A DNA stretch of 32,213 bases, taken from the NCBI GenBank assembly GCA_003231035.1, contig QIHU01000370.1, positions 1 to 32,213 on the forward strand. Reading direction: 5' to 3'. Of this stretch, positions 4,006 through 32,213 are shown in pieces; position 1 is the stretch's first letter, and the number at the start of each line of letters is the position of its first letter. This DNA is from Acidobacteriota bacterium (lineage in GTDB: Bacteria > Acidobacteriota > Thermoanaerobaculia > Multivoradales > SZUA-115). Below the pieces are notes generated by a model, which was given only the letters and a program-made list of their open reading frames with translations, did not search any database and was not told where the DNA came from. Both the position numbers and the translations under genes were made by a program.

Positions 4006-4332
4006 TCAGCAACAACCGCAAGCCATTGCGAGCGACCGGCAGACCGCGCGCATCTTCTCGGGAGCCACCGTGCCGACGAAACCGCGTAACTGAGCCTGCC
4101 GCACCGTGAAGAGATTGCATAGATTGACGCAGGAATCCTGCTTCAGCCCCTCCGCGACGCCGATCCCGACTTCAGTGGGCGATCCGCGAAGCGTCGATGT
4201 GACAGCCGCGACTGTCACCGTGTGCAGCAATGGGATCAGAGCCGGACGACTCAGAATCAAGACCGGACGCTTCTTGTCCGGCCGCGGCAGATCGAGCAGC
4301 CAAATTTCTCCTCGATTCACCCTTCCGGCCAT
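4006..4332 (-). CDS. mazF: MazF/PemK-type endoribonuclease toxin
   Basis: VNRGEIWLLDLPRPDKKRPVLILSR and downstream VTSTLRG...CVNLCNLFTVRQAQLRGFVGTV match the MazF/PemK family; overlaps the small upstream gene by 16 nt. Confidence 0.87.
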   Translation of the reverse strand: MAGRVNRGEIWLLDLPRPDKKRPVLILSRPALIPLLHTVTVAAVTSTLRGSPTEVGIGVAEGLKQDSCVNLCNLFTVRQAQLRGFVGTVAPEKMRAVCRSLAMACGCC

Positions 4333-4559
4333 GGCTGACCATCGATCAACGGCTCGATCTCGCCGAGCAGAGAATCCGCCTCACCCGCGTAGGCTTGCGC
4401 CATACGCGCATCGTTCTCCCTTCGTTCCTTGGCTGCCAGGTAGAGCCGAACCGCTGTGCGGATGAATGCCGACCGCCCACTTTCTTTGACTTCTGGATCC
4501 GCATCGAGCTCGCGAAGAAGAGTGGTGTCGATCGAGACCTGAACCGCTTTGGATGGCAT
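4317..4559 (-). CDS. Ribbon-helix-helix antitoxin of the MazE type
   Basis: MPSKAVQVSIDTTLLRELDADPEVKESGRSAFIRTAVRLYLAAKERR resembles an RHH fold; 80 aa, directly upstream of and overlapping mazF. The longer 256-aa ORF in the track extends into the RND gene. Confidence 0.85.
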   Translation of the reverse strand: MPSKAVQVSIDTTLLRELDADPEVKESGRSAFIRTAVRLYLAAKERRENDARMAQAYAGEADSLLGEIEPLIDGQPWPEG

Positions 4560-4578
4560 GTGGAGATAATACCACATG
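4557..4578. promoter_or_regulatory. Inverted repeat CATGTGG-N8-CCACATG over the antitoxin start codon; candidate autoregulatory operator
   Basis: Perfect 7-bp arms; on the minus strand the spacer contains TATTAT preceded by TGG (extended -10-like), 6 nt before the ATG. Confidence 0.55.
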
Positions 4579-4657
4579 ATCTTGTTGGCTAGACGGAGTG
4601 GTCCAGCGGCGCTCACCTTGGGGTCGAGGTCGGCGCCTAGCTGTCCGTGGCCGAAGG

Positions 4658-7243
4658 CTAGGGAAGGTCTAGCCGACGCCGGACCCGCAGACTCAGATAG
4701 GCGGGCAGCATCGTGATCGCCACCAAAGCGGTCAGGGCGGCGCCCAGAACGGCCACGTAGCCGGTGGTGCGCAAGCCGGGATAGTGGGAGAGCGACATCG
4801 AGCCAAAACCGACCATGGTGGACAGGGCGGCGACCACGATGGCGTTGCCCGTCTGCCGGAGGCCGTCCCGAACCTGGTCGGCGGTGCTCCGCCGCACTTC
4901 GTAGTAGCGGTGCACCATGTGCAGCCCGTAGTCGACACCGATACCGATAATCATGGTGGTGACGAAGATGTTCATGAAGTTCATCGAGATTCCCAGGAGG
5001 ACCATCCCGCCGAGCATCCAGATCACCCCGACCGCCAACGGCACCAGGGCCAGAATGGCCGCGCGCAGACTTCTGAAATCGAGCCAAAGGAGCAGAGCGA
5101 CCACGAATGTGCCCAGGAGGGCCGCGATCCAGGCGTCGCGTCGTATCCGGTTGCGCATTCGTTCGTTGACCAAGTTGGCGCCGGTGAGCATCACCTCGTC
5201 TCCTAGATCTTCCGCCAGATCGAGCACCTCCTGAGGCGCCTGGCGGCGGTAAACCTCGGGCGGCGGGTAGAGATAGATGACGCTCTTCCAGCCCGACTCC
5301 AGCGGCAGGAGCGCCCGGTCGAGGAGCTGGCGCACTTGCCGATTGCCGCCGAAATCTTCCACCCGCACCGGTTGCCGAGCCGCCAACGCTTTGTCGAGCA
5401 GATCGAGGCCGCCGCTGAAGGGCTCCACCCGTCGATTGAGCGCCGCTAGCGCCTGAGCGAAGCGAGATCGGATGCGCTCCATGTCAAAACGGCCGTCCTC
5501 GCGCCCGGCGCGCAGCCATTCGAGCGCCTCGCGCTGGGCGGAGGGAGCGGGCACGAACTTGGTGACGCTGCTCACTCCCTTCATCACCCCGGCCTCGACC
5601 AAAGCCTGCGCCCGTTGGGTGATCTCGGCGGTGCGCTCCAACAGCGGTTCGATTTCCTCCCCTTGGAGCACCAGCATCATGAAGTCGAAATCGGAGTCGA
5701 ACGACTCGGCCACCTCCTGTTCCACTTCGACACCGGCGTTGCCCGCCGGCCGCATCGAGCGCCAGTTGTCCTCAAAGCGCAACTCTCCCAACAAGGTCCC
5801 AGCACCGACGGTGACCAGCAAACCGAGCCCCAGCACCGTTTTGGGGTAGCGCATACACAGATCGATCATCCACTCGGAACCAAAACTGTGCAGGTAGAGC
5901 CGGGGCGCCTTGCGGCGGCGGCGCGAGTGATTCTCGCTCCAGGCGAGCATCGCCGGCAGCAAGAGTAGGACCGCCGCCATGCACAGCAAGATGCCCGTGC
6001 CGGTGAGTATGCCCATCTGGCGAAGGCCGCGAAAATCGGTAAAGGCGAAGGCGTAGAAGGTCGCCGCGGTGGTGACCGCCCCCACCACCACCGCCCGGCC
6101 CGAAGTGCCCATGGTCTTGGCCAGCGCCCGCTCAAACCCAGCACCGGCGTTGCGCTCTTCGACGAAGCGACCATAAAAAACAATAATAAAGTCGATCCCC
6201 AACCCGATCAACAGCGCCGCCGTGCCACTGGTGGCCGTACTCAGCGTACCGAAAGCCACCGCCGAGAAGCCGAAGGTAAGCACCAACCCTGAAGCCAGTG
6301 GAATAAAGGCGTAGGTCAGCGGCCCAAGACGGCGAAAAGCGATCAAGAAGAGCAGCAGCACTAAGGCCATCGAACTCAGCATGTTGACCGTCATGTCCCC
6401 TTGAATCGCCGAGGCGTCGATCAGCGCCGTAACGTAAGGACCTCCGCTTCGCGTCGTGGGCGGCAGCGGACGGGAGGAACCGGAAGGGCCGGCGATCTCC
6501 TCCCACTCGGCCAGGGTCGCATCGATCGCCGCCTGCGTCGCCCCCACCAGCTCACGGTCGAAGGCGATGTTCTGTGGCGCTTTGGTCGGCTTGACCAGGA
6601 GCAACAGCACTTGGCGATCCTTGGAGAGGAAGTAACCACTGCTCCAGTCGATGGCGAGACCACCGCGCCCCACGCTCAGCCCTCCACTCAAAATCTCCGC
6701 GATGCCCAAGGGATCGAGCTTCACCAGATCTTTCATCGCCAGAGCCTGCGGCGTGGTGAGCAATCGCTTGAGTTCCTGGGCGCGACGATCGATCCCCTCG
6801 TCGCTCAGCCGCTCGGCCAACGTAGCCCGGCCGTCCTCGTCGAGAAACAGCAAGGCATAGGGAAAGAAGGTCTCCACCAACTCGATCGGATCGCCGATCC
6901 GATAGTCGACGGTGTTGATTTGTTCGATACCTTCAAGCCGCGCCCCCAACCGATCGACGAAACTCTCATAGGGAGCGATCATCGCTCCCTCGGGTACGCG
7001 AACGGTGATCATCAGGTAGTCGAAGGTTCCGAAATCCTTCAACGTATCCATGTAGGCGTTGATCACCGGATCCTTGCGCGGCAGCAGGTTCAAGACATCG
7101 GTATCGAAGCGCAGCCGCGAGGCGAGGCCAAGCGCCACCAGCAAAAGAAGAGCGAAACCGACAAAGACCGCGCGGTAGTGGTGTTGGGCCCACAACGCCA
7201 AGCGCTGCAAGGGGCCCGATGTAGCTTCAGTGGAGCTACTCAT
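4658..7243 (-). CDS. RND superfamily exporter (MMPL-type)
   Basis: About 860 aa with two halves of hydrophobic segments, LIGLGIDFIIVFYGRF and IIGIGVDYGLHMVHRYYE repeats typical of MMPL/RND permeases; ATGA overlap with pgsA stop. Confidence 0.9.
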   Translation of the reverse strand: MSSSTEATSGPLQRLALWAQHHYRAVFVGFALLLLVALGLASRLRFDTDVLNLLPRKDPVINAYMDTLKDFGTFDYLMITVRVPEGAMIAPYESFVDRLGARLEGIEQINTVDYRIGDPIELVETFFPYALLFLDEDGRATLAERLSDEGIDRRAQELKRLLTTPQALAMKDLVKLDPLGIAEILSGGLSVGRGGLAIDWSSGYFLSKDRQVLLLLVKPTKAPQNIAFDRELVGATQAAIDATLAEWEEIAGPSGSSRPLPPTTRSGGPYVTALIDASAIQGDMTVNMLSSMALVLLLFLIAFRRLGPLTYAFIPLASGLVLTFGFSAVAFGTLSTATSGTAALLIGLGIDFIIVFYGRFVEERNAGAGFERALAKTMGTSGRAVVVGAVTTAATFYAFAFTDFRGLRQMGILTGTGILLCMAAVLLLLPAMLAWSENHSRRRRKAPRLYLHSFGSEWMIDLCMRYPKTVLGLGLLVTVGAGTLLGELRFEDNWRSMRPAGNAGVEVEQEVAESFDSDFDFMMLVLQGEEIEPLLERTAEITQRAQALVEAGVMKGVSSVTKFVPAPSAQREALEWLRAGREDGRFDMERIRSRFAQALAALNRRVEPFSGGLDLLDKALAARQPVRVEDFGGNRQVRQLLDRALLPLESGWKSVIYLYPPPEVYRRQAPQEVLDLAEDLGDEVMLTGANLVNERMRNRIRRDAWIAALLGTFVVALLLWLDFRSLRAAILALVPLAVGVIWMLGGMVLLGISMNFMNIFVTTMIIGIGVDYGLHMVHRYYEVRRSTADQVRDGLRQTGNAIVVAALSTMVGFGSMSLSHYPGLRTTGYVAVLGAALTALVAITMLPAYLSLRVRRRLDLP

Positions 7244-25934: not shown

Positions 25935-27146
25935 ATGGTCTTCTTCAACTACAGCACAATGCAGATGGCGGCCAAGGTCGTCTACTACGGCCCAGGTCTG
26001 GGTGGAAAGACCAGCAATCTGCACTGGATCTACGCCAATACGGAGAATGAGTCGCGCGGTGAGATGGTCTCACTGGAAACCGAGACCGATCGAACTCTGT
26101 TCTTCGATCTCTTGCCGATCGAAGTCGGCTCGATCGCTGGCTTCAAGACCCGGCTCCAGCTCTACACCGTCCCCGGCCAGGTTTTCTATAACACCACTCG
26201 TAAGTTAGTCCTCAAAGGGGTCGACGGTGTGGTCTTTGTCGCCGATTCCCAGCGCGCCATGGTGCAGGCCAACCTCGACTCGTTTCGAAACCTGGAAGGG
26301 AACCTCGAAGAGATGGGACTCTCGGTGAACACCATCCCGCTGGTCCTCCAGTACAACAAGCGGGACCTGGGCGACATCGCCTCAATCGAGGAACTCAACA
26401 AGACCCTCAACCGCAAGAATTGGCCCCACTTCGAAGCCACCGCGATCAACGGAGAAGGGGTTTTCGAGACCCTCAAGGGGGTCTCCAAACTCACCTTGAT
26501 GGCGTTGAAGAAACGGCTGTCACGGTCGAGCGACAGCATCTCACCAGCCGCGCCCACGGCGCCCCCGATCACCACCACGGCAACACCTGAGCAGGCCGCG
26601 GCAGCCGCGCAGACCGCCAAAATCAACGCGGCCGAGCGCGCCCGCCAAAAAAACGCGGACGTCCCCCCTCAGCCAGACCTAACCCCCAAGCTGACGCCGC
26701 CACCCAAAGCGGCATTGGCGCCAAAGCCAACCTTGGCCCCGAAGCCGGCACCGGCACTGGCACCAGAACCATCGCTAAAGCCAGCCGCGGCGAAGCCCAT
26801 CGCGCCAAAACCGGCCGCACCGAAACGGGCGCCCCTGCCGCGCCCTCAACGCAAGGAACTCGACGCCCTCGGCGAACTCGAGCGGTTGCGCCAAGAGACC
26901 ATCCGTCCCAGATCGAGGCTTCGGCCCACCAGCAATGGAAGCGGCCAGCTGTACCGCGACATTCAGCTTTCTCTCAAGGGCACCGACTTTCAACGGGCCC
27001 GCCGATTCTTCCTCAACCTTCAGATTCAAGACGACGACAACCAGATCGTCGAGTCGATCAAGGATTTCGAAGTCGAGATCGACAACACCGAGGACCTGAA
27101 GAAGGTCCAGCTCAAGCTCAACATTGCCCTCAATCGACTGCCGTAG
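25935..27146 (+). CDS. MglA-like small GTPase with Pro/Ala/Lys-rich linker and C-terminal extension
   Basis: P-loop YYGPGLGGKTSNL, TVPGQVFYNTTRKLVLKGVDGVVFVADSQ, QYNKRDL; residues after about 200 are low-complexity PKPxxAPKP linker plus a 66-aa end module. Confidence 0.88.
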   Translation: MVFFNYSTMQMAAKVVYYGPGLGGKTSNLHWIYANTENESRGEMVSLETETDRTLFFDLLPIEVGSIAGFKTRLQLYTVPGQVFYNTTRKLVLKGVDGVVFVADSQRAMVQANLDSFRNLEGNLEEMGLSVNTIPLVLQYNKRDLGDIASIEELNKTLNRKNWPHFEATAINGEGVFETLKGVSKLTLMALKKRLSRSSDSISPAAPTAPPITTTATPEQAAAAAQTAKINAAERARQKNADVPPQPDLTPKLTPPPKAALAPKPTLAPKPAPALAPEPSLKPAAAKPIAPKPAAPKRAPLPRPQRKELDALGELERLRQETIRPRSRLRPTSNGSGQLYRDIQLSLKGTDFQRARRFFLNLQIQDDDNQIVESIKDFEVEIDNTEDLKKVQLKLNIALNRLP

Positions 27147-30175: not shown

Positions 30176-31279
30176 ATGAGCGGTAGCTTTGAAGATCGGC
30201 TCACCGGCTGGCTACGCCAGTTCGCCGCCGGAGCCGGCGGAGAGGCGATCGGCGACGACGCCGCCTTTCTTCCCGCCGGTGGACCCTGGGCATGGACCAC
30301 CGATACGCAGATCGAAGGGGTTCATTTCCAGCCTGGCCTTTCACCCCAGCTCCTGGCCCGACGCCTCCTGGCGGTCAATCTCTCGGACCTGGCGGCAGTG
30401 GGCGCCATACCGCGCTATGCGTTGCTCGCCCTGGCCGCTCCCCGGGGCTTTGACCACCGCGCCTTTTTCCGTGCCTTTGTCGCCGCTTGCAAGGCTCACG
30501 ACCTGCACCTGGTTGGCGGCGATCTGGCGACCAGTCCGACCTGGACCGCCGCCCTCACTCTCGTCGGCGAGCCCGCGGCAAAGCGCTGGGTCGAGCGTCG
30601 CGGAGCACGGCCCGGAGACCGCCTCTGGGTGGGGGGCACCCTCGGAGAGTCCGCCCTCGGGTGTCACCTCCTCGCCCTCGGGGCGCGTCCCAAGGGCCGG
30701 GCGATCGAGCTGCCCGCTTCCCTCCTCTCAAGATCCCCGCCTTCCCCGCGTTTGCTCAAGGCGGCGCGGCGAGCGGTACGTCGCCATCTGGCCCCGCGGC
30801 CCCAACTATCCCTAGGTAGCTGGCTAGCCAAACGAACGCGTAGCGCCGCGATCGACCTCTCGGATGGTCTTTCCTTGGACCTCCACCGCCTCTGCAGGGC
30901 TAGCCAGGTTGGCGCGGTTCTCGACCACCGCACCTTGCCAACCGCCGCCGATTTCAAGCCGTTGTGTCAGCGACTCGGCCTTAACTCCCTAGACCTGATG
31001 CTCGCGGGAGGCGAGGACTACGTGCTCCTCTTCACCCTGCCACCACGGGTGCGCCCGCCCCGAGAGTTCTTCCCCGCGGCCAGATCGATCGGGGTCCTTT
31101 CTGAACAACGGCCACTCCGTTTGGCCATCGACGGCAAGCTGCACCCCATCGAAGAACGCGGCTGGGATCACCTTGGGTATGAGGATCGGCCCGCCACGCA
31201 AAGAAAAAGCCCACCCCGCGAAAAAAGGGTGGGCTCTGACCCATCGATCGTCTCTAAAGCTACACCAGCGGCTTCTTGA
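30176..31279 (+). CDS. thiL: Thiamine-monophosphate kinase
   Basis: GDDAAFLPA, DTQIEGVHF, NLSDLAAVGAIPRYALLALAAP, DLSDGLSLDLHRLC, LAGGEDYVLLFTLP. Confidence 0.93.
   Translation: MSGSFEDRLTGWLRQFAAGAGGEAIGDDAAFLPAGGPWAWTTDTQIEGVHFQPGLSPQLLARRLLAVNLSDLAAVGAIPRYALLALAAPRGFDHRAFFRAFVAACKAHDLHLVGGDLATSPTWTAALTLVGEPAAKRWVERRGARPGDRLWVGGTLGESALGCHLLALGARPKGRAIELPASLLSRSPPSPRLLKAARRAVRRHLAPRPQLSLGSWLAKRTRSAAIDLSDGLSLDLHRLCRASQVGAVLDHRTLPTAADFKPLCQRLGLNSLDLMLAGGEDYVLLFTLPPRVRPPREFFPAARSIGVLSEQRPLRLAIDGKLHPIEERGWDHLGYEDRPATQRKSPPREKRVGSDPSIVSKATPAAS
31208..31235 (-). terminator. Rho-independent terminator of the HTH-duplication gene, embedded in the thiL 3' coding end
   Basis: Perfect 9-bp stem AGCCCACCC / GGGTGGGCT with 10-nt loop; on the minus strand followed by TTTTTCTT-like tract. 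No T-tract on the plus strand. Confidence 0.75.
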
Positions 31280-31958
31280 GTTTCTTGATCAAACGGTCGA
31301 ACTTCTTCTGCAGCTGGTTGTAGGTCTTCTCCAGTTCCCGAATCCGCTTTTCGGCTTCACGGGGAAGTTCCAGCAACGTCGCCACGGAAGCCGCCGCGAC
31401 GGCCCTGACCGCTCCGGTGGCACCAGCGGCCTTGCGACCCCGGTGCGCCTTCTTCGGCGCTCCCCGTTTGCTCTTGCTTCGAATCTCGGTAAACACCGCG
31501 ACCGCTTCCGGCTTGAATCGAAGATTGCGCCCCTTACCCTTGTGCGGCAAGCGGTTCAGGAAGTTCTTCTTGTAGCGCAGGAGAGTCGGGTAGGAAATCC
31601 CGGTGGCCTCCTGGACCTGGGTCAAGGTCAAGAGCTTCTCCCCCGTCTCGAGCACGGCTGTGCTCGTCTTCTTGGGCGGCAGCGAAGGCTTCGCGGCGGT
31701 CGTTCCCGCGCTCGCGCTCTTGCGCGGACGGCCGCGCTTGCTGATGTTTTCCTTCTTGATCTCTTTGAAGACCGCCAAGGACTTGACGTAGTAGCGCTGC
31801 TTACGCCCTTCGCCTTCAGATGGAATTCGATCTTGGTACAATTTCTTGTAACGTTGCAGGGTCGGCATCGAGATCTTCGTCCGCTTCGAAACCTCCGACA
31901 GGGTCAAGAGCTTTCGTCCTGAGCGGGTGGTTTTCTTCGCACGCGCCTTGGTCGCCAT
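31260..31958 (-). CDS. Protein with two tandem HTH (MerR-like) units each ending in an AT-hook-like basic motif, plus C-terminal coiled coil
   Basis: LLTLSEVSKRTKISMPTLQRYKK...KRGRPRK and LLTLTQVQEATGISYPTLLRYKK...KRGAPKK; SD aaggaga 6-9 nt before ATG at 31958. Confidence 0.8.
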   Translation of the reverse strand: MATKARAKKTTRSGRKLLTLSEVSKRTKISMPTLQRYKKLYQDRIPSEGEGRKQRYYVKSLAVFKEIKKENISKRGRPRKSASAGTTAAKPSLPPKKTSTAVLETGEKLLTLTQVQEATGISYPTLLRYKKNFLNRLPHKGKGRNLRFKPEAVAVFTEIRSKSKRGAPKKAHRGRKAAGATGAVRAVAAASVATLLELPREAEKRIRELEKTYNQLQKKFDRLIKKLKKPLV

Positions 31959-32129
31959 GGGAACTCTCCTTTTCATTTTGAAAAATAGGCTGGGATAGTC
32001 AGTCTGGAAAGACCAGGCCCGAAACACTGAATGAAGGCCGGATACGAGACTGAGTAAGATTGTCTCTCAAGGAAACTGATTATCGAAAAGAAAGTCAACC
32101 TTCCGAGTCGACGCATCCAAAAATCTTAG

Positions 32130-32213
32130 TTAGGTCCGCAGCTTCAACTGTTTAACAAGATAGGACAGAGCCTGGCGAGTGAGCCCAAGGCGGCGCGCGG
32201 CCGCGGCCTGGTT
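32130..32213 (-). CDS. C-terminus of a Fis-type HTH regulator (possibly sigma-54-dependent), truncated by the right edge
   Basis: Minus strand reads NQAAAARRLGLTRQALSYLVKQLKLRT-stop, resembling the Fis-family HTH at the C-terminus of NtrC-like activators. Confidence 0.75.
   Translation of the reverse strand, partial: NQAAAARRLGLTRQALSYLVKQLKLRT

Follow-up and report, generated by a model that had tools for sequence, protein, structure and literature searches.

RGRP hooks and disordered basic segments rich in lysine, alanine and proline are features of HMGA and of histone H1-like basic tails. Among bacterial proteins, CarD of Myxococcus xanthus has an HMGA-like AT-hook domain, a basic and intrinsically disordered region with RGRP hooks (PMC4374960). 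RacA reportedly condenses and tethers chromosomes, using both specific and non-specific DNA binding and oligomerisation via its HTH and its coiled coil (PMC6593407). BldC is a MerR-like winged helix-turn-helix (wHTH) regulator with no effector domain that assembles head-to-tail along direct repeats (PMC5859096), and in TraN of the Enterococcus plasmid pIP501 a single chain combines two MerR-like wHTH halves (PMC4981023).

We analysed a stretch of 32,213 nucleotides, referred to here as the window, from an Acidobacteriota bacterium (assembly GCA_003231035.1, contig QIHU01000370.1). The open reading frame list and Pfam identified a minus-strand gene at 31260-31958 (including the stop codon), whose product of 232 amino acids carries two wHTH units, an AT-hook and a predicted C-terminal coiled-coil helix. 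No described family with such a layout was found in the libraries and literature searched, and a sequence search of the PDB gave chance matches only. An earlier interpretation of this DNA, made from the letters alone (the sequence-only reading), had suggested a nucleoid-associated or bridging protein rather than a ligand-sensing MerR regulator, which we find plausible but supported only in part.

Results

The gene and its two winged HTH units

The gene is present in one copy in the source genome. Its ATG start codon is preceded by a Shine-Dalgarno sequence, AAAAGGAGA (read from the sequence as AAGGAGAG at 31965-31972, minus strand), and a Shine-Dalgarno sequence of 5-6 bases lies ahead of the starts of most orthologues. 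An intrinsic-terminator-like hairpin of 12 pairs, 7 of them G-C, with a T-rich tail, is located 3' of the gene (31206-31237, minus strand). Both signals had been noted in the sequence-only reading, as had the small size and highly basic nature of the product, which are borne out by orthologues of 194-310 amino acids with a pI of 10.5-12.0 and a net charge of +26 to +67.

A hidden Markov model (HMM) of the unit, built from family members with the window's own two units among them, placed unit 1 at residues 16-82 (31713-31913, minus strand; E 7e-35) and unit 2 at residues 107-172 (31443-31640, minus strand; E 2e-32). Local alignment of the two units using BLOSUM62 gave a score of 172, while 2000 shuffles gave a mean of 30.9 (sd 5.6) and a maximum of 62. 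Pfam detected MerR_1 (PF13411, E 4.8e-09, above the cut-off) in two stretches of the protein, and HTH_17 (PF12728, E 8.9e-08) likewise in two. A full-length AlphaFold2 model, generated using an alignment with 27 homologues, showed pLDDT values of ~94-97 in both units (~96 for unit 1) and ~48-52 over most of the linkers; the units were modelled as independent domains with low-confidence linkers between them (pTM 0.37), and the model of an isolated unit had a pLDDT of 90.5. The proposal of two homologous MerR-like units is therefore well founded, with an HTH fold predicted for each in the full chain and again for the isolated unit.

The recognition-helix stretch is SMPTLQRYKK in unit 1 (31842-31871, minus strand) and SYPTLLRYKK in unit 2. 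In the alignment of orthologues (alignment A1), the family pattern of unit 1 is T-L-x-E-V ... S-M-P-T-L-Q-R-Y-K-K ... I-P-S-x-G-x-G-R-K-Q-R-Y and that of unit 2 is S-Y-P-T-L-x-R-Y-V-K ... G-x-G-R-x-R-R-F, with S, Y, P, T, R and Y of the second recognition helix invariant in 27 orthologues. The recognition helices are thus near-invariant within each unit and unlike between units (SMPTLQRYKK versus SYPTLxRYVK), which suggests that some sequence-specific binding is likely.

Foldseek searches with the isolated unit ranked RacA first (5i44, probability up to 1.00, TM 0.6-0.66, E ~0.03-0.04), with SoxR, Xis, CarH, BmrR, BldC and RdfS behind it; the weak E-values are attributable to the small size of the domain. 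CarH and RacA led the matches of the full-length model, which also included 6ama/6amk (BldC) and 4p0z (TraN). Resemblance of the RacA type is common to other MerR-like domains, and a profile search of PDB sequences misses RacA, whose top ranking by predicted fold may be taken as a lead, short of proof of kinship.

Hooks, linkers and the C-terminal helix

An AT-hook had been proposed after each unit, and this holds for unit 1 but not for unit 2. KRGRPRK (residues 74-80; 31719-31739, minus strand) has an RGRP core with basic flanks, and 26 of 32 orthologues carry the GRP core behind unit 1. KRGAPKK (residues 164-170; 31449-31469, minus strand) lacks the RGRP core and, judged on its motif, is a degenerate, non-canonical hook in the source species; RGR follows unit 2 in many orthologues and is usual in alignment A1. 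The linkers vary in length from 15 to 84 amino acids among orthologues, consist to 68-100% of K/R/A/P/S/T/G, and are predicted to be disordered and basic. Arrays of extra hooks occur in L029, L030 and L032, with up to 12 GR[PK] motifs in L029/L030, and an N-terminal, H1-like basic tail of 50 amino acids is present in L016 and L020.

The second linker is followed by a short C-terminal helix that is conserved in the family, frequently with a terminal KPxxVTLxR (alignment A1). AlphaFold2 predicted a helix at residues 200-228 (31275-31361, minus strand) with pLDDT values of ~92-97, and I206, L209, Y213, L216, F220, L223 and L227 are spaced exactly 3-4-3-4-3-4 in the sequence. This heptad spacing is that of a putative coiled coil and agrees with the oligomerisation-type helix suggested earlier. 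No effector domain was seen among the aligned orthologues by Pfam, alignment or AlphaFold2.

Genomic context

The usual syntenic order is a sigma-54 regulator gene, the tandem-wHTH gene and then convergent thiL-lon-nrdR, with dipeptide-permease genes between the first two in some genomes. The window shows the same arrangement, save that its contig ends inside the gene of the sigma-54-dependent regulator with its C-terminal Fis-type HTH, of which the last 27 codons and the stop codon are present (32130-32213, minus strand). The orthologous upstream neighbour contains Sigma54_activat and HTH_8, with TPR-like matches in one of the two copies scanned. Sigma-54-dependent regulators of ~1100 amino acids, with no recognised sensor domain, are encoded in L033 (457-3792, plus strand) and L035 (311-3727, plus strand). 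This large and conserved neighbour is possibly a functional partner of the tandem-wHTH protein.

Downstream, a thiL-like gene with the AIRS fold (30176-31279, plus strand; PF00586, E 2.3e-18) serves as a syntenic marker and is separate from the tandem-wHTH protein; its reading frame crosses the terminator on the minus strand and shares 20 bases with the 3' end of the tandem-wHTH gene. thiL lies downstream in most of 18 flanked loci, and genomes without the tandem-wHTH gene mostly retain thiL. No pseudogene remnants were found around thiL in 11 such genomes (flanks of ~1.5 kb, some shorter), and neither a par-like gene nor an integrase was seen among the neighbours scanned. Elsewhere in the window, a MazF/PemK-like toxin reading frame (4006-4332, minus strand) lies beside a ribbon-helix-helix-like antitoxin reading (within 4317-5087), and by eye, the reading frames at 4006-4560 (minus strand) form a toxin-antitoxin pair. 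Also judged by eye, the reading frame at 25935-27146 (plus strand) encodes an MglA-like small GTPase with a long middle region rich in proline, alanine and lysine and a C-terminal extension.

Promoter and expression

A near-consensus sigma-70 promoter, TTGAC-N17-NATAAT, was found upstream of the gene in 17 of 32 orthologues with the strict pattern TTGAC-N(16-19)-NATAAT, against 0.17 expected from shuffled sequences. The 20 background segments contained 229 other genes, none of them with this promoter; these genes were defined with a naive ORF caller, with some starts possibly wrong. This points to strong transcription that depends on the housekeeping sigma factor, as far as sequence can indicate. 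In the source species, GATAAT (32079-32084) and TTGACT (32093-32098; both minus strand) lie 8 nucleotides apart and may be a promoter remnant (32079-32098), while the sister genome L004 has TTGACA-N17-GATAAT, as though ~9 bases had been lost in the source species. Given this disrupted spacing, the copy in the source species may use another -35 element.

A blind search for gapped dyads (paired tetramers) in 27 upstream regions chiefly recovered this promoter, with little else above shuffles; apart from the promoter, these regions showed no conspicuous operator-like or direct-repeat motif, and a fixed bipartite operator and autoregulation were rejected as candidates. Codon usage was mildly raised towards that of ribosomal genes (mean rank ~0.75 of background, range 0.26-1.00, 10 genomes), and we set aside the argument for high expression from codon usage, which was weak, variable and indecisive across these genomes. 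HU genes showed the strict promoter in 0 of 20 cases, a count that says little since, as seen by eye, HU genes lie close behind another gene.

Distribution and history of the family

Among 151 genomes of the class, the gene was present in 53 of 72 from the same order and in none of 79 from the other orders. It was not found in 19 of the 72, some of them incomplete, and the protein would thus be a dispensable, accessory component. A survey of 396 genomes across the phylum, with scoring limited to seven candidates at most in each genome, added only two genomes outside the class, with a single unit in a different architecture. In these (L068, 600-1620, plus strand, and a counterpart on the minus strand of L069, from another class of the phylum), the one unit lies in the middle of a protein of ~340 amino acids, which also shows a coiled-coil-like stretch and has a different kind of C-terminal region.

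Scanning 85,462 species for a sequence pattern gave 18 loci, labelled mostly as Acidobacteria, Acidobacteriota, Thermoanaerobaculia, Thermoanaerobaculum or Holophagales, with one uncultured bacterium; one locus labelled Deltaproteobacteria is the same contig as G006 of the source's order. By tblastn, neither the 50,697 phage records nor the 72,556 plasmid records contained a homologue. With this result and the chromosomal, syntenic position of the gene, an origin as a phage, plasmid or excisionase gene was rejected.

Searching homologues by unit number, as the sequence-only reading had recommended, the unit HMM found orthologues with two, three or four units, and a small paralogue (L070) with a single unit and a hook. 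The three-unit proteins form a group within one family of the order (f4). In the four-unit protein (L067, 1250-2890, plus strand), the last two units are nearly identical, which on sequence grounds reflects a recent duplication, and a long acidic EEAAAP repeat lies between the fourth unit and the coiled coil. A tree of 91 units placed 37 first units to one side of a branch with a support of 66/91, which is not decisive; the position labels required 8 changes against 43 under shuffling, and third and fourth units clustered with later units. The separation of first from later units in the tree indicates that the duplication is probably older than the radiation of the order, and unit number appears to have grown since in one family of the order through duplication of later units.

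Discussion

A proposed architectural role

We lean towards the view that this is an architectural DNA-binding protein specific to its lineage, namely an accessory nucleoid-associated protein whose wHTH units and hooks bind DNA and whose coiled coil bridges it. The units, the hook, the predicted disordered linkers and helix, the family, its synteny and its promoter are read from the sequences; from these features, we infer its mode of DNA binding, its oligomerisation, bridging and abundance, and an action that would be global instead of local. Each unit would insert its recognition helix (S-x-P-T-L-x-R-Y) into the major groove and its wing (GxGRxxRY/F) into the adjoining minor groove, and the RGRP hook and the linkers rich in lysine, alanine and proline would add contacts of low specificity with the minor groove and the backbone. 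The flexible linker would allow the 2-4 units of one chain to grip DNA segments that lie side by side or apart, and chains would be coupled through the C-terminal coiled coil, so that DNA would become coated, bent or bridged. An architectural or bridging role is preferred over ligand sensing because of the conserved parts, the expanding units and hooks, the lack of an effector domain, the strong promoter and the RacA/BldC-like fold. As for the nucleoid-associated, non-sensing role suggested earlier, the conserved architecture and the missing effector domain favour it, while the weak codon-usage signal, the 19 of 72 genomes in which the gene was not found, the disrupted promoter spacing in the source species, the weak E-values of the fold search and the near-invariant recognition helices do not. 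HU was found in all 72 genomes of the order, which argues that the protein adds to HU, and replacement of HU was rejected as a candidate.

An alternative that we consider unlikely, yet the most serious of those weighed, is that the protein is a sequence-specific transcription regulator with a limited regulon, in which the units read two half-sites and the hook and tails merely raise affinity. The near-invariant recognition helices that differ between units, the conserved position beside a sigma-54 regulator gene and the precedent of BldC, an effector-less MerR-like wHTH protein that regulates (PMC5859096), are consistent with such a function. However, linkers of 15-84 amino acids and unit numbers of 2-4 fit poorly with one fixed bipartite operator, the dyad search of upstream regions returned chiefly the promoter with no operator-like motif standing out, and the long hook arrays of some members are excessive for local action. 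The variable linkers, the gain of units and the arrays of hooks argue instead for avidity and bridging, and tolerance of added units and variable spacing, as read from these sequences, would be expected of a protein that coats or bridges DNA.

It appears improbable that the protein is a RacA-like chromosome anchor or segregation factor whose units gather chromosomal sites and whose coiled coil attaches to a partner at the pole or the membrane. Although the RacA DNA-binding domain heads the solved folds matched by the isolated unit and is near the top for the full model, and the layout of wHTH and coiled coil is shared with RacA, which reportedly tethers and condenses chromosomes (PMC6593407), the helix here is single and short (~29 amino acids), no par-like gene was seen among the neighbours scanned, and RacA has neither tandem units nor hooks. 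A domesticated excisionase, or another DNA-bending protein of a mobile element, is the least credible reading, and we give it hardly any weight: among PHROGs, phrog_66 (excisionase and transcriptional regulator) matches best, with E 1.3e-08, and Xis structures occur among the fold matches, but no integrase was seen nearby, the gene is inherited at one syntenic place, and no homologue was found among the phage and plasmid records searched.

The well-studied groups for nucleoid proteins are the Proteobacteria, Firmicutes and Actinobacteria, and no nucleoid protein specific to these Acidobacteriota was found in full-text literature searches. If the proposed role is true, the protein represents a further use of the MerR-like domain, in covalent strings of 2-4 units with AT-hooks and a coiled coil, to be set against classical MerR dimers and the chains of single domains formed by BldC. 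Since orthologues differ by nature in how many units and hooks they carry, the contribution of valency to DNA bridging is directly testable. More tentatively, and with somewhat less than even confidence, we suggest that these proteins constitute an undescribed class of bacterial architectural protein found mainly in a single order of Acidobacteriota. Its tandem MerR-like wHTH units would be countable DNA-binding beads strung along an H1/HMGA-like chain with hooks, the number of units and hooks would set the valency, and the protein would organise the chromosome jointly with HU.

Comparison with known systems

Like RacA of Bacillus subtilis, the protein is predicted to have a wHTH fold and a C-terminal coiled coil and lacks an effector domain. 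RacA, however, has a single N-terminal wHTH with no AT-hook or hook-bearing linkers, belongs to a different phylum and has DivIVA as its polar partner; identity between the domains is ~21-25%. BldC of Streptomyces is likewise a MerR-like wHTH protein devoid of an effector domain and was among the fold matches (6ama/6amk), but it is a single domain of 68 residues that has no coiled coil or hooks and works as separate chains, whereas here the units are covalently joined by flexible linkers. The 2-4 units and the conserved C-terminal helix set the family apart from such stand-alone single wHTH proteins lacking a coiled coil. In TraN (14.4 kDa), the two halves share a beta core, on which they pack into an internal dimer, and recognise a single specific site near oriT. 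The present units, by contrast, are predicted to be separate domains joined by a long disordered linker, in a protein that also has hooks and a coiled coil.

Classical MerR regulators share the MerR-type wHTH (PF13411, E 4.8e-09) but consist of a single wHTH directly followed by a long dimerisation helix, with an effector domain at the C terminus, in contrast to the two units, short distal helix and missing effector domain seen here. CarD also has RGRP hooks in a disordered basic segment of a bacterial DNA-binding protein, but combines them with an N-terminal domain that binds RNA polymerase and lacks wHTH units, and HMGA and H1-like tails share the hooks and basic disorder without tandem wHTH units of the present kind. 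In being small and basic and in its predicted DNA-binding fold, the protein resembles nucleoid-associated proteins. While the kind of domain itself is known, what is new is the presence of tandem units and AT-hooks on an effector-less, MerR-like and probably architectural protein.
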